Part shown: positions 1 through 29,780 of the stretch, piece after piece
Numbering within the stretch: position 1 is the first letter of the stretch
Layout of the letters: each line of letters starts with the position of its first letter
The notes under the pieces: generated by a model
Seen by the model: the letters and a program-made list of their open reading frames with translations, nothing else
What the model was told of the DNA's origin: nothing
Database searches by the model: none
Source of the DNA: Chitinophaga pinensis
GTDB taxonomy: Bacteria; Bacteroidota; Bacteroidia; 2-12-FULL-35-15
Reading direction: 5' to 3'
Length of the DNA: 33,985 nucleotides
NCBI GenBank assembly: GCA_945865315.1
Contig: CAMBDK010000019.1
Location: 1-33,985, forward strand
Translations under genes and position numbers: made by a program

Positions 1-37
1 TATCTGTTTTGTCGAAATTATTTTGAAAGCTTTACTT
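1..37 (-). repeat. Edge of dispersed repeat, copy A (truncated by window)
   Basis: Read on the minus strand this stretch gives AAGTAAAG followed by CTTTCAAAATAATTTCGACA and AAACAGATA. The same block opens two longer repeats at 20453 and 28833 on the plus strand. The body of this copy must lie to the left of the window, so only its end is visible. It lies 36 bp beyond the stop codon of the secreted protein gene at 74-1789. Confidence 0.7.
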
Positions 38-6381: not shown

Positions 6382-8373
6382 TTAGCGTACCCAATCTATA
6401 ATTACAATGCCGGCTGCACCATTGCCTCCAGCAGAAGAACAGCCAGACTGAGCTCCACCGCCACCGCCGCCACTACCGATGGATGTTGCTGAACCTCCTG
6501 CGGTGCATTGGTTAGTATTAATACCAGAACCTCCGGACACTCCGCCACCCATAATAGATGGCCCGCCAGCACCTCCCCAGGCCCATTGAAAGGCTGCATT
6601 TATAAATGGACCTCCAGAAGTTCCATTTAAATTGATGTCTCCATTTATGCCAGCTCCCCCTGCGCCCCCGGTACTAACTCCTCCTCCATTGGCCCCCGAG
6701 GCAATAATAGTTGTACCAGGCCCTGCAAAAGAGCTAGTACCTCCTGAATTGCCAAATGCCTGAGCTGCACCGCCTGATCCTCCAGTGCCCACCGTTACGG
6801 TGTAGCCTGTATTTGGACTAAGTCCCGAATAATATTTAATAGCAACTCCACCAGCTCCGCCTCCACTGCCTGTTACGTTACCTATTTGGCCGCCTCCACC
6901 ACCACCACCGCCACCAATCACTGTAACTTTAAATACTGTGCTTGTAGTAATGTTTGCAGGAGTTGTAAATGTTCCTGAAGAAGTAAATTTTTGAAATTGT
7001 AAATTGGGTAATCCCACCAAGTCATTCCAAACACCAGAAGCAAATCCTTCCAGTTGGGGGACTGTAGTATTGTATCTGATATCCCCATTTACGGGAGTTA
7101 CAGGACGTTGTGCAGAAGTGCCAGATGGTAAACGGACAGCATCTGTTTTTGAGCCTATATCCAGAGCTGTTGCGGGTGATGTTGTACCGACACCTACATT
7201 AGTTCCATTATCAAAAATGCTGCTATTTCCTAAAGTAGTACCATTAGGCGTCCATTTAGTTACATAATTAAGAGTGCCGGAACCAGCTACTGTTCCAGCA
7301 TTTGCGGCGCTCCATGCAGCCAAGCCAGAGGCATCAGAAGTTAATACTTTGCCAGCACCTGGCGCTCCACCTGTTATTTTTATTTGACCCGCTATTTCTA
7401 ATTTTGCAGCAGGGCTGGTGGTTCCGATACCCACTTGTGTACCATTATCGAATATAATAGAATTACATATAGAAGATGGACTTGTAAACTTGGTCACAAA
7501 GTTTGTAGTTGCAGCATTGCAAATTAAATTGTGAATGGAAACTCCATTAACCACAAGTGAATCAAAGTTTGCATACTTTGCAAAGAGGCTATCTACATTT
7601 ATATATTTAGAAAAAATGGAATCAAAGTTTGCATACTTTGCAAAGAGGCTATCCACATTTATATATTTAGAAAAAATGGAATCAACGTTTGCATACTTTG
7701 CAAAAAGGCTATCTACATTTGTATATTTAGAAAAAATGGAATCGATATTAGCATACTTTGCAAAAAGGCTATCCACATTTATATATTTAGAAAAAATGGA
7801 ATCAACGTTTGCATAATTTGCAAAAAGGCTATCTACATTTATATATTTAGAAAAAATGGAATCGAGGTTTGCATACTTTGCAAAAAGGCTATCTACATTT
7901 ATATATTTAGAAAAAATGGAATCGATATTTAGGTAATTTGCAAACAGGGAATCAATGTTAACATAACTCGCAAAAAGACTATCTAAATTTACATAGTTGG
8001 CTATAATGGAATCGATGTTTATATAATTTGCAATAAGAGTATCAATGGATGAATAGTTTGTATAAATAGTATCTGTAGAATTATTTGAAGGGAGGGCACA
8101 CATTGAAATCCAGCTTGTAGTTGGCTGTCTGTAAAAGAAATAACACATTGAATCAGTATTATATACCAATAAAGAGTTTGCAGGACTGGGAATAGCAAAC
8201 ATTCCTAATGTGTTCATTCTAGGGACTAATAAACCTTTATTTGCAGATACCAACTCCAAAATTGATGTAGCATCGGGTAAATTAGTACCAATACCAACAT
8301 TGTTTTGTGCCTGAATAGAAAAATTTAAATGTAGACAAATACAAGTAAAACTTAATATCAAAATTTGTTTCAT
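6382..8373 (-). CDS. Secreted fibre-like protein with decapeptide repeats and glycine-rich C-terminal domain
   Basis: The 663-residue protein starts with a signal peptide (residues 1-22, ending SIQAQ). An NNVGIGT block (24-30) and LLVPRMN (48-54) are typical of Bacteroidota tail-fibre-like surface proteins. Residues 109 to about 278 hold roughly 16 decapeptides alternating NVDSLFAKYA and N-x-DSIFSKYI. Two further VGIGTTSPA-type blocks follow (about 315 and 390), which in phage tail fibres lie near trimeric beta-structured regions. From about 470 to the end there is a glycine-rich domain with long G runs, ending IVIIDWVR. I cannot assign a function. Surface fibre or adhesin is an inference from composition. 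No T9SS tail is seen on this protein, although a relic sorting domain lies directly downstream. Confidence 0.8.
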   Translation of the reverse strand: MKQILILSFTCICLHLNFSIQAQNNVGIGTNLPDATSILELVSANKGLLVPRMNTLGMFAIPSPANSLLVYNTDSMCYFFYRQPTTSWISMCALPSNNSTDTIYTNYSSIDTLIANYINIDSIIANYVNLDSLFASYVNIDSLFANYLNIDSIFSKYINVDSLFAKYANLDSIFSKYINVDSLFANYANVDSIFSKYINVDSLFAKYANIDSIFSKYTNVDSLFAKYANVDSIFSKYINVDSLFAKYANFDSIFSKYINVDSLFAKYANFDSLVVNGVSIHNLICNAATTNFVTKFTSPSSICNSIIFDNGTQVGIGTTSPAAKLEIAGQIKITGGAPGAGKVLTSDASGLAAWSAANAGTVAGSGTLNYVTKWTPNGTTLGNSSIFDNGTNVGVGTTSPATALDIGSKTDAVRLPSGTSAQRPVTPVNGDIRYNTTVPQLEGFASGVWNDLVGLPNLQFQKFTSSGTFTTPANITTSTVFKVTVIGGGGGGGGGQIGNVTGSGGGAGGVAIKYYSGLSPNTGYTVTVGTGGSGGAAQAFGNSGGTSSFAGPGTTIIASGANGGGVSTGGAGGAGINGDINLNGTSGGPFINAAFQWAWGGAGGPSIMGGGVSGGSGINTNQCTAGGSATSIGSGGGGGGAQSGCSSAGGNGAAGIVIIDWVR
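7561..7920 (-). repeat. Six near-identical 60-bp tandem repeats (with degenerate half units to about 8070)
   Basis: Six consecutive 60-bp units are almost identical, differing mainly at the first dozen bases of each unit. From 7921 to about 8070 the array continues as increasingly divergent 30-bp half units. The period keeps the reading frame and encodes two decapeptides per unit. The sharp gradient from near-identical to degenerate suggests recent expansion by slippage or unequal crossing over at the low-coordinate side of the array. Confidence 0.95.
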
Positions 8374-20446: not shown

Positions 20447-20839
20447 GACATTAAGTAAAACTTTCAAAATAATTTCGACAAAACAGCTATATTAATAAAA
20501 ATAAATGATTTCATTTTTTTGCAAAAAAAACATGCTTATTAAAACGCGCTTGAGGAATGAACAAACATAATGAAGGGTTGCAGGTGGGAAGGATTTTTTT
20601 ATCAAGACAAAAGAAAAACACACAGTTTTTGAATCATTTAATTTGCGGATTTATTTCGAAAACTTCGTTAAGCTAATGTTAATTAATGCTTATTACTTGG
20701 AGCAATTGAAGGTAATACTTTTTAAATAGCTATTTTTAAAAAAAATAAAAATTCAAAAAATCATAATTTAGCATTAATTTATATTCAAAAAAACATCTCA
20801 TTTTCTTAATTTCATTTATAAAAACAATATTTTAAAATA
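20447..20839. other. Intergenic region carrying dispersed repeat copy B
   Basis: Most of this 393-bp gap is the repeat annotated at 20453-20673. The remainder (20674-20839) is AT-rich leader of the aminotransferase gene with no recognised promoter motif. Confidence 0.6.
20453..20673 (+). repeat. Dispersed repeat of about 220 bp, copy B
   Basis: The block begins AAGTAAAACTTTCAAAATAA and ends near CGAAAACTTCGTTAA. It is similar along its length to 28833-29066, sharing blocks such as GAGGAATGAACAAAC, GGGTTGCAGGTGGG, ATCAAGACAAAAGAAAAACA and TTTGCGGATTTATTT. Compared with copy C it lacks about 25 bases just before ATCAAGAC, which removes one arm of a hairpin. No credible ORF is inside. Confidence 0.85.
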
Positions 20840-25505: not shown

Positions 25506-25662
25506 TCTAATTAGTGTCTGTCCATAAAGTCGAGAGTCTGAACTATAATGTTCGAGTTCGAGGCTTTCGCAGTTTTGAAAATCAGGAGTTTACATTGGTA
25601 AATGACTGATTTTCAAAACAAGAATAACGAAGAAATCGGACATTATAGACAGACTCTAATTA
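25506..25662. mobile_element. MITE-like hairpin element with possible 8-bp target duplication
   Basis: TCTAATTA occurs at 25506-25513 and again at 25655-25662. Between them the ends are imperfect inverted repeats (GTCTGTCCATAAAGTC on the left, minus-strand GTCTGTCTATAATGTC on the right). In the centre GTTTTGAAAATCAG (25572-25585) and CTGATTTTCAAAAC (25606-25619) are exact reverse complements, with a further TTTAC/GTAAA stem in the loop. The whole 141-bp interior can fold as one long hairpin. It encodes no protein. It sits between the DUF2779 gene and the E2 gene. A transposase acting in trans is inferred, not seen. Confidence 0.65.
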
Positions 25663-25672
25663 TTTAATTTAT

Positions 25673-28065: not shown

Positions 28066-28614
28066 TTACTTTTTTTTTAGCCAAGTAATAATTTTTTCAC
28101 AATTAGGACTTTCACTGGAATAGGCTATATCTATCAAACTACCATTGCTATCAATCAAATATTTTTGAAAATTCCATTTTACATCTGAATCCATTTTACC
28201 ATTATTTTCTTTTTTAGTTAGCCATTGGTAAACAGCATCCATATCTTTTCCTTTCACCGATATTTTTTCCATTATTTGAAAAGTAACACCATAATTTTTG
28301 GAACAAAATTCTCTTATTTCCAAATTCGTTCCTGGGTCTTGGTGAAAAAAATCATTAGAAGGGAAGCCTAATATTACAAAATTATCGTCTTTATATGTTT
28401 TATATAATTGCTCTAAATCTTTAAATTGTGGCGTATAACCGCATTTAGAGGCAGTATTAACTATCAATACTTTCTTACCTTTTAGCTTAGAAAAACTATA
28501 TTCATTGCCTTCTGTAGTTTTGGCTTTTAATTCGTAGAATGATTTTTGTGCCTTAGCCATGCTTACAATTAAAGTGAAAAGGATAATTAATAAAAAGTTG
28601 ATTTTTGTATTCAT
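28066..28614 (-). CDS. Glutathione peroxidase-family thiol peroxidase (exported)
   Basis: The 182-residue protein has an N-terminal hydrophobic signal (1-22, ending SMAKAQ) that predicts export to the periplasm or a lipid-side location. The peroxidatic Cys58 lies in NTASKCGYTPQF. LGFPSNDF (82-89) occupies the usual FPSNQF position with Asp in place of Gln, a variant I believe is common in this phylum. Cys104 in REFCSKNYGVTF matches the resolving cysteine of thioredoxin-dependent Gpx proteins such as yeast Gpx3. WNFQKYL (148-154) completes the active site. The electron donor is therefore more likely a thioredoxin-type protein than glutathione. It lies upstream of bshB1. Confidence 0.92.
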   Translation of the reverse strand: MNTKINFLLIILFTLIVSMAKAQKSFYELKAKTTEGNEYSFSKLKGKKVLIVNTASKCGYTPQFKDLEQLYKTYKDDNFVILGFPSNDFFHQDPGTNLEIREFCSKNYGVTFQIMEKISVKGKDMDAVYQWLTKKENNGKMDSDVKWNFQKYLIDSNGSLIDIAYSSESPNCEKIITWLKKK

Positions 28615-28675
28615 AATTTTATTTGAGCTTTAATTTGAGATTATAACTTATTAATTGTATTGTTGAAAGTTCTTA

Positions 28676-28683
28676 CAAATGTA
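28676..28683 (-). promoter_or_regulatory. Putative -7 box (TACATTTG) for the gpx-bshB1 unit
   Basis: Minus-strand TACATTTG is an exact TAnnTTTG match, 61 bp before the gpx ATG at 28614. Confidence 0.45.
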
Positions 28684-28832
28684 CAAAAAAGTATAAGTTC
28701 AAGAGATTAAACAAAATAAATTCGATATTTTTAATATTTATCAAATAGAGCCTTAACTTTACAAACGGCATTAAAATATTTTTTTCAATTTTAATAGCTT
28801 TTTTTTTAACAAAAATCTTGTAATAAGCATAT

Positions 28833-29066
28833 CTTTCAAAATAATTTCGACAAAACAGATAAATTAATAAAAACAGATGATTTCTTTATTTTTACAAAAA
28901 TATCCTTATGAAAACGCGCGTGAGGAATGAACAAACGCCATGTAGGGTTGCAGGTGGGGAGGTATCGTTTGTTTTTGATTTTTTGTTTCTTTTGTATCAA
29001 GACAAAAGAAAAACACACAGTTTTTGAACCAATTAATTTGCGGATTTATTTTGAAAACTTCACTAA
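28833..29066 (+). repeat. Dispersed repeat of about 230 bp, copy C
   Basis: This is the longest visible copy, running from CTTTCAAAATAATTTCGACA to about TTTTGAAAACTTCACTAA. It shares most blocks with 20453-20673 and its first 30 bases with the reverse complement of 1-30. It contains a hairpin, TTTCTTTTGT then ATCAAG then ACAAAAGAAA (about 28988-29012), whose left arm is missing in copy B. Its end lies about 57 bp upstream of ccmB. Confidence 0.85.
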
Positions 29067-29123
29067 TTCATTTTCTCTTTATAAAATATACATACAATCG
29101 AAAATTTTAATAAAAACAAATTT

Positions 29124-29780
29124 ATGTTATTTCATCAGATAAAATGCCTTGTTGCAAAAGAAATTAAACTCGAAATACGAAATAAATATGCTTTAGGAGG
29201 TATTTTATTATATGTAGTTTCTACAATATTTGTAAGTTATTTGTCTTTTAAAAAAGTAATCAATCCATCTACTTGGAACGCATTGTTTTGGATAATTTTA
29301 CTTTTTGCGTCGATCAATGGGGTGGCAAAAAGTTTTTTAATTGAAACAAAGGGGAAACTTATTTATCTGTATACATTAGTTAGCCCACAGGCTGTTATAC
29401 TCTCTAAAATTATATATAATTTATTGTTACTCATTGTATTATCTGGCTTGTGTTTATTAGTATACTCCATTTTTATAGGAAATATTATTCAGGATTTATC
29501 CTTGTTTTTACTTACCTTATTTTTAGGAAGTATGGGGTTTTCATCAATTTTAACAATGGTTTCAGCAATATCTTCAAAAACAAACAATAATTTTACATTA
29601 ATGGCAATTTTAAGTTTTCCTCTTTTAATTCCGCTGTTAATGGTTTTAATTAAACTTTCAAGAAATGCAATTGATGGTTTGGAAAATTGGGATATAAATT
29701 TTCTATTGGTTTTAATGTTTTTAAATGTTATAATTATAGCCCTATCTTATATATTATTTCGTTACCTTTGGCGGGATTAA
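29124..29780 (+). CDS. ccmB: Haem exporter membrane protein CcmB
   Basis: CcmB is the membrane subunit of the CcmAB transporter, which powers release of haem-loaded CcmE in System I cytochrome c maturation. The 218-residue protein has about six hydrophobic segments. It begins with the family's cytoplasmic VAKEIKLEIRNKYALGG block (about 10-26), followed by LLYVVSTIFVSYLSF and an FWIILLFASINGVAKSF segment, and ends with the IIIALSYILFRYLWRD helix. It heads the run ccmB-ccmC-ccmD-ccmE-ccmF on this strand, 73 bp before ccmC. The ATPase gene ccmA is not in the window, so it must be encoded elsewhere. Confidence 0.9.
   Translation: MLFHQIKCLVAKEIKLEIRNKYALGGILLYVVSTIFVSYLSFKKVINPSTWNALFWIILLFASINGVAKSFLIETKGKLIYLYTLVSPQAVILSKIIYNLLLLIVLSGLCLLVYSIFIGNIIQDLSLFLLTLFLGSMGFSSILTMVSAISSKTNNNFTLMAILSFPLLIPLLMVLIKLSRNAIDGLENWDINFLLVLMFLNVIIIALSYILFRYLWRD

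Follow-up and report, generated by a model that had tools for sequence, protein, structure and literature searches.

A dispersed repeat with MITE features in a Bacteroidota genome encloses a structured, covarying module found in many genera

The window, i.e. the whole stretch of 33,985 nucleotides that was analysed, is one contig of a 3.27-Mb genome assembled in 195 contigs. It contains three copies of a dispersed repeat: one complete, one with an internal loss and one cut by the contig end (Table 1). The three copies and the conserved blocks which they share had been pointed out in an earlier note made from the sequence alone, and both are real, although the outer limits given there for the copies were off by a few bases. 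It had also been noticed that the left arm of a conserved hairpin is lost in the second copy; this is so, and the right arm of a further stem (P1, see below) is absent there too. Other features of the window include a protein encoded at 74-1789, with a match to the SBBP beta-propeller repeat and a type IX secretion sorting tail, and tandem 60-nt coding repeats at 7559-8047, within an ORF (6382-8373, minus strand) whose protein has a Gly_rich_2 match. At 25510-25665 lies a second dispersed palindromic repeat, with 51-nt arms that are 73% complementary and a 4-nt loop. Full or partial copies of it, 86-97% identical, are present on several other contigs (in 696 kb of the genome). Judged by its sequence it is probably another MITE, its ends resembling inverted repeats (AGTGTCTGTC...GACAGACTCT).

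Table 1. Coordinates of the repeat copies in the window and of the parts of the complete copy
Feature	Position	Strand	Remarks
Full 237-nt MITE copy	28827..29063	+	Target duplication TAA at 28824-28826 and 29064-29066
5' terminal inverted repeat	28827..28849	+	Family consensus GTAAAGCTTTCAAAATAATTTCG; window copy starts GCATATC; consensus ends equal at 18 of the first 23 positions
3' terminal inverted repeat	29041..29063	-	
Core module	28890..29021	+	Match to covariance model R1, 141.7 bits (window copy among the sequences used to build R1)
P1 left arm AACAAACG	28930..28937	+	Partner 28966-28973
P1 right arm CGTTTGTT	28966..28973	+	
P3 left strand	28974..28979	+	Consensus CTTGAT, window copy TTTGAT; complementary to P2 loop 28996-29001
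P2 hairpin left arm TTTCTTTTGT	28986..28995	+	
P2 loop ATCAAG = P3 right strand	28996..29001	+	
P2 hairpin right arm ACAAAAGAAA	29002..29011	+	
Second copy, 214 nt	20455..20668	+	Without P1 right arm and P2 left arm; target duplication TAA at 20452-20454 and 20669-20671
Third copy, 5' end only	1..35	-	Cut by contig end

The limits of the repeat are abrupt: in an alignment of 66 copies and pieces, column conservation is ~0.9 inside the 237 nt and ~0.45 outside. The unit is bounded by imperfect terminal inverted repeats of ~24 nt, and identical 3-bp sequences, mostly TTA or TAA, flank 49 of 64 copies (mean 19.5 and maximum 29 in 300 permutations). By its size, inverted ends, 3-bp target duplication, copy number and intergenic sites, and with no functional ORF (see below), the repeat is a MITE. 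In the earlier note it had been taken for a structured element, which is correct as far as it goes, but the terminal inverted repeats and target duplications had been missed. Duplications of 3 bp of the TNA type occur in subgroups of the IS5 family, which for the present MITE is a lead only.

The supposition that three copies in one window imply many in the genome was borne out. In a whole-genome search the 14-mer GGGTTGCAGGTGGG was found at 106 sites with at most one mismatch and the 23-nt terminal repeat at 296 sites with at most two mismatches, compared with no site for either reversed pattern, which excludes chance similarity of AT-rich DNA. The window copy used as BLAST query gave at least 46 matches in the genome, with 40 of 340 first-look candidates scored. 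In a spread sample of 509,988 bases (contig C1 plus every fifth one, with no more than 20 kb taken from any contig), 34 copies or pieces (E below 1e-5) make up 1.4% of the bases, which extrapolates to ~220 (218) copies per genome. Short-read assemblies are interrupted by the repeat: of the 69 contig ends in the sample, 12 lie within 60 nt of a copy, so that the true copy number may exceed this extrapolation. Copies are intergenic: overlap of more than 60 nt with a predicted ORF was seen in 2 of 87 (simple ORF prediction, ORFs mostly inside the element having been dropped first). Some copies stand head to tail, with one target triplet common to both.

A transposase sharing the ends of the repeat, which the earlier note had proposed as a check, was sought in part of the available sequence. 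The MITE ends are absent at all five loci of DDE_Tnp_1, the only transposase family searched genome-wide. Scanning of 695,724 bases (~21% of the genome) revealed 28 end-like sites away from the copies, of which two are contig-end fragments with 0-1 mismatches and the others have 3-5 mismatches; no autonomous element with MITE ends was found in these 696 kb. Likewise, no parental insertion sequence with the same ends was found among the loci read in genus-mates.

These genus-mates do have the ends. Two versions of the end pattern matched 6 and 5 of 36 genus genomes, the 36 being everything returned by an order-wide search for the pattern. From 32 loci, 15 of them without a complete unit, 17 complete units could be read, 15 with equal flanks; since L429 and L449 are the same, this leaves 16 distinct units (loci of genomes G013, G018 and G022). 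L369 and L075 are a single locus of the own genome. Identical 3-bp flanks were present in 14 of the 16, all of them in G013 and G018. Fifteen units are 137-198 nt long and one is 512 nt. Their palindrome, around TTCGACAAGCTC...GAGCTTGTCGAA, differs from that of our repeat, and neither of two core motifs occurs in any of the 16. The presence of the same ends around a different palindrome means that the cargo is exchangeable and the vehicle separable from it. At loci of G013 and G018 (such as L405, L408, L414 and L436) the arm length of the palindrome varies, and the 512-nt unit holds a further insert.

Inside the MITE of the window lies a core module of ~130 nt, composed of three pairings: 1) P1, an 8-bp stem with a loop of 28; 2) P2, which is the hairpin of the earlier note; and 3) P3, proposed by RNAalifold, in which CTTGAW directly after P1 pairs with the P2 loop WTCAAG. 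In an alignment of 29 sequences, 96.5% of 687 cells are paired (96-97% for each of P1, P2 and P3), both sides have changed in 11 of 24 pairs, and pairing drops to 53-66% when partners are slid; none of the observed values was attained by more than 1 shuffle in 500. All three pairings thus covary across genomes, and the proposal that the repeat is a structured nucleic acid element rather than a coding one is upheld. The hairpin is real, but it had not been recognized that it belongs to a separate module, which many other genomes carry without the MITE ends.

Since the 29 sequences were drawn from relatives of the repeat itself, two further checks of the pairings were made. Firstly, a perfect 8-bp P1 was found at its fixed place at 66 of 183 motif sites (identical 60 upstream bases being counted once) and at 0 of 183 with shuffled upstream sequence. 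These perfect sites have 30 different P1 arms, and P1 mostly begins with GA and ends with TC. Secondly, an exact pattern in which the bases concerned had been left free matched 83 distinct strings from 47 genomes, the own genome excluded. In 79 of these the bases of the sixth P3 pair are complementary (51 at most after shuffling), in 77 those of the loop-closing P2 pair (44 at most), and in all 83 those of the W/W pair of P2.

The minimum-energy fold of the consensus as RNA (z -2.56) contains P2 (8 of 10 pairs) but neither P1 nor P3, and the fold as DNA (z -1.25, with 24 of 200 shuffles as good) contains P1 and P2 without P3. G-T wobble would be expected over A-C mismatch if the RNA strand were the form maintained; the counts were 30 and 27 in the own genome, and 18 and 22 in 56 P1 arm pairs between genomes. 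As wobble and A-C mismatch are about equally frequent, RNA, single-stranded DNA and cruciform are not distinguishable by this signature. Along the strand, CTTGAW is followed by a T-rich linker, the left arm of P2, WTCAAG and the right arm of P2, an order that has the topology of an H-type pseudoknot. Telomerase RNA contains an H-type pseudoknot with a U-rich loop beside an A-U stem. The core differs from this type in that WTCAAG directly adjoins the P2 right arm; the two helices can therefore form completely only under strain or one at a time. Complete formation of both would make a tight pseudoknot, probably strained by its geometry, and P2 and P3 may be alternatives rather than simultaneous.

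The module, which is structured, covarying, present in many genera and without an Rfam match, is the interesting part of the repeat. BLAST matches were obtained in 39 of 59 relatives (29 of 35 genus-mates, 9 of 23 genomes of other families, plus the own genome); among the matches listed, those to relatives fall within ~53-212 of the 246-nt query and none extends to the ends. Within the class, model R1 gave hits in 74 of the 197 genomes searched and in 52 of the 118 genera; no more than 17 candidates were scored for each genome, and the genomes from which the model was built are included. A stricter exact pattern matched 48 of 392 genomes of the phylum, with no match of the reversed pattern among the rows listed. 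A GTDB genome scan revealed at least 112 module loci; 77 of 80 listed carry names that we read as Bacteroidota (Chryseobacterium, Pedobacter, Mucilaginibacter, Parabacteroides, Capnocytophaga, Cyclobacterium and others), and the remaining 3 are from MAGs named Neomarinimicrobiota, Patescibacteria and Melioribacteraceae. The upstream part differs between forms, some having a closing stem around CTGTTTGA...CGAGTT and ending in the same CTTGA-P2 module. Judged by eye, the repeated unit is the core alone in two genomes (G122 and G040), a longer unit containing the core in another (G032) and the MITE here.

Database searches gave no known counterpart. No match above the gathering threshold was found in Rfam release 15 for the window, nor any at E up to 1 for 28600-29300, and the only families recognized at 20 other loci were an rRNA (one) and tRNAs (two); a known RNA family was therefore rejected. 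A phage origin was likewise rejected, the generic exact module motif having no match in the viral collection. In open papers the module motif strings were found only as one 15-mer in an unrelated Zymomonas paper, although figures and supplementary motif lists may still hold the module; the accessible part of PMC9723704 contains nothing on the repeat.

Within the own genome the fold is not preferentially kept. Divergence from the consensus is 4.6% at paired and 5.5% at unpaired core positions and 5.4% and 5.2% in the two outer parts, and only 3 compensated changes were found among the copies. The copies of this one genome decay neutrally after amplification. As the fold is kept between lineages but not among copies, we infer, from this one genome, that it has a role in propagation.

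Position and orientation are relevant to the reading that the core is a dispersed putative terminator or 3'-end RNA module kept at gene ends by the hosts, in which P1 and the T-rich linker would stop transcription and P2/P3 would bury the new end. At the GTDB-scan loci, a gene lies upstream in the sense direction at 82 of 102 sites, codirectional gaps contain 54 sense and 16 antisense modules (p 6e-6), and modules are under-represented in divergent gaps (4 of 102 module sites versus 81 of 391 gaps in the same loci, p 1.3e-5); 29 of 131 sites, without a neighbour on one side, were omitted, and Chryseobacterium sites are partly orthologous, so that these counts are not all independent. Overlap of more than 15 nt with a predicted ORF was seen at 10 of the 131 sites. 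In the own genome, codirectional gaps contain 35 sense and 7 antisense copies (p 1.5e-5; 28 of 87 copies, without a neighbour on one side, were omitted). A Parabacteroides MAG with six copies between codirectional genes also agrees with termination, 4 of the 6 being closely followed by a promoter-like TAnnTTTG box. However, among 58 sites whose downstream gene runs in the sense direction, such a box lies within 50 nt at only 7 (antisense: 0 of 44), the own genome shows no deficit of copies in divergent gaps (11 of 59 versus 58 of 358, p 0.7), and the pairs are not preferentially conserved among its copies. A terminator scan of 28700-29200 gave no hit, for loops of 3-8 only, with which P1 (loop of 28) is undetectable. 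We consider it unlikely that the module is maintained by hosts as a terminator.

Somewhat less likely still is that the core is an atypical REP of the Bacteroidota RAYT subclass 2.6, moved by that single-strand transposase. In favour of this reading, the accessible text of PMC6006769 places most of this subclass in Bacteroidetes and describes 'atypical secondary structures' on its flanks, of which further copies exist at other sites of the genome. The own genome has a fragment of such a gene (motifs NHIH, WQ and YIHNNP), and one copy of the repeat (C96:1048-1317) is 2.2 kb from it with another gene between. In genome G041 a core (C86:2436-2566) lies 1.6 kb from a RAYT gene (C86:446-808), just past the fetched flank. 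Y1 matches are also commoner in core-bearing genomes (65 of 74 versus 80 of 123, p 0.0004), an association at genome level that may reflect genome size or kinship. In contrast, the flanks themselves (up to 1.5 kb) do not contain the core at any of 65 Y1/REP transposase loci, 64 of them distinct: none of the 30 top Y1 loci, none of the 5 own Y1 loci and none of 30 subclass-2.6-type loci from 30 genomes (best E 0.39, with a motif search too), where 12 and 17 genomes of the two 30-locus sets have a core match and are informative. Genome G214 has 13 scored core matches and no Y1 match. Nor does the core, with its ~130 nt and a P1 of mostly GA...TC, show a 20-40-nt palindrome with a GTAG/CGTC foot (foot judged by eye). 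An origin from RAYT/REP is thus not supported by three locus sets without the core, within the limits set by the 12 and 17 informative genomes, the 1.6-kb case in G041 and the genome-level association.

No other enzyme recurs beside the module in the neighbour clusters listed (at most 25, each with 3 or more loci), which were made from 573 proteins near motif sites at 166 loci. Judged by eye, no transposase or nuclease is among them, and most represent genes that occupy orthologous positions in Chryseobacterium or ORFs that overlap the module.

That the repeat encodes a small protein is very improbable and was rejected: the consensus and 53 of 80 copies have an open 39-codon frame through the core (MKTRVRNEQTRCRVAGG...), but its dN/dS is 1.02, all three codon positions change at similar rates, and in G041 it is broken while paired changes keep P1.

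We favour, with a probability of about 60%, the reading that the repeat is a MITE whose cargo is a structured module of Bacteroidota, similar to REPs and dispersed independently of the MITE, the fold of which serves the module's own spread. In this process, i) a DDE-type transposase would have acted on the ~24-nt inverted ends to move the MITE, with duplication of 3 bp at the target, ii) the module, as a single strand, would fold into P1 and the hairpin, with the P2 loop able to pair with the upstream CTTGAW, iii) this fold may be required by some enzyme or replication process for spread of the module, and iv) it would be kept in propagating lineages and freely lost in dead copies. Most copies probably do nothing for the host beyond affecting transcripts, to a degree sufficient to bias how the copies are oriented. 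More tentatively, and with the odds somewhat against it, the core could be a new self-dispersing structured element of Bacteroidota and perhaps neighbours, with a single-stranded fold, a freely varying P1, a P2 loop read by the upstream strand (P3) and an enzyme that is neither RAYT nor element-borne, packaged in vehicles such as the MITE.

The MITE resembles known bacterial MITEs such as QMITE2 of Coxiella and ERIC, which, according to the accessible parts of PMC10969869 and PMC9769881, are likewise short and non-coding, have inverted ends, duplicate a short target and occur in high copy number at AT-rich intergenic sites. It differs from them in that it encloses a covarying module found in many genomes without these ends, and in that genus-mates hold another palindrome in the same ends. 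An IS982-derived MITE is described for Cardinium, also Bacteroidota, in the portion of PMC9769881 available; that MITE has a parental insertion sequence, whereas none was found for ours in the sequence examined. With the REP/REPIN and RAYT (TnpA-REP) system the core shares imperfect palindromes, intergenic location, many copies, and likeness within but difference between genomes. REPs are defined, in the accessible passages of PMC3733652 and PMC6006769, as 20-40-nt palindromes with a GTAG or CGTC tag, and CGTC-tagged ones are recorded from Bacteroidetes in those of PMC3733652; the core differs in its ~130 nt, its three pairings and its absence from the flanks of the Y1 genes read. Candidate palindromic structured RNAs of Bacteroidetes, some of them predicted terminators, are among the 3161 HMP2 motifs of PMC8040213, as far as the accessible text of that paper goes. 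They are palindromic and from Bacteroidetes like the core, which could be one of the motifs.

Provided that its members form one family, the module is a structured repeat common between the genes of Bacteroidota (52 of 118 genera), without a match in Rfam, and it suggests a dispersal system. The occurrence of the MITE ends around different palindromes in different species shows a way in which a transposase can multiply modules to which it is unrelated. The module puts non-coding sequence between genes, and its placement and orientation could affect transcripts.

Close groups of modules were also observed. In the Parabacteroides MAG mentioned above (L273), the six modules are near-identical and lie within 6.3 kb, and several neighbouring genes resemble, by eye, nucleotidyltransferase/HEPN-type pairs. 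In Chryseobacterium takakiae (L332), three modules are spaced exactly 288 nt apart, head to tail, adjoining genes that by eye are like those of arginine biosynthesis, a neighbourhood common to other Chryseobacterium loci.
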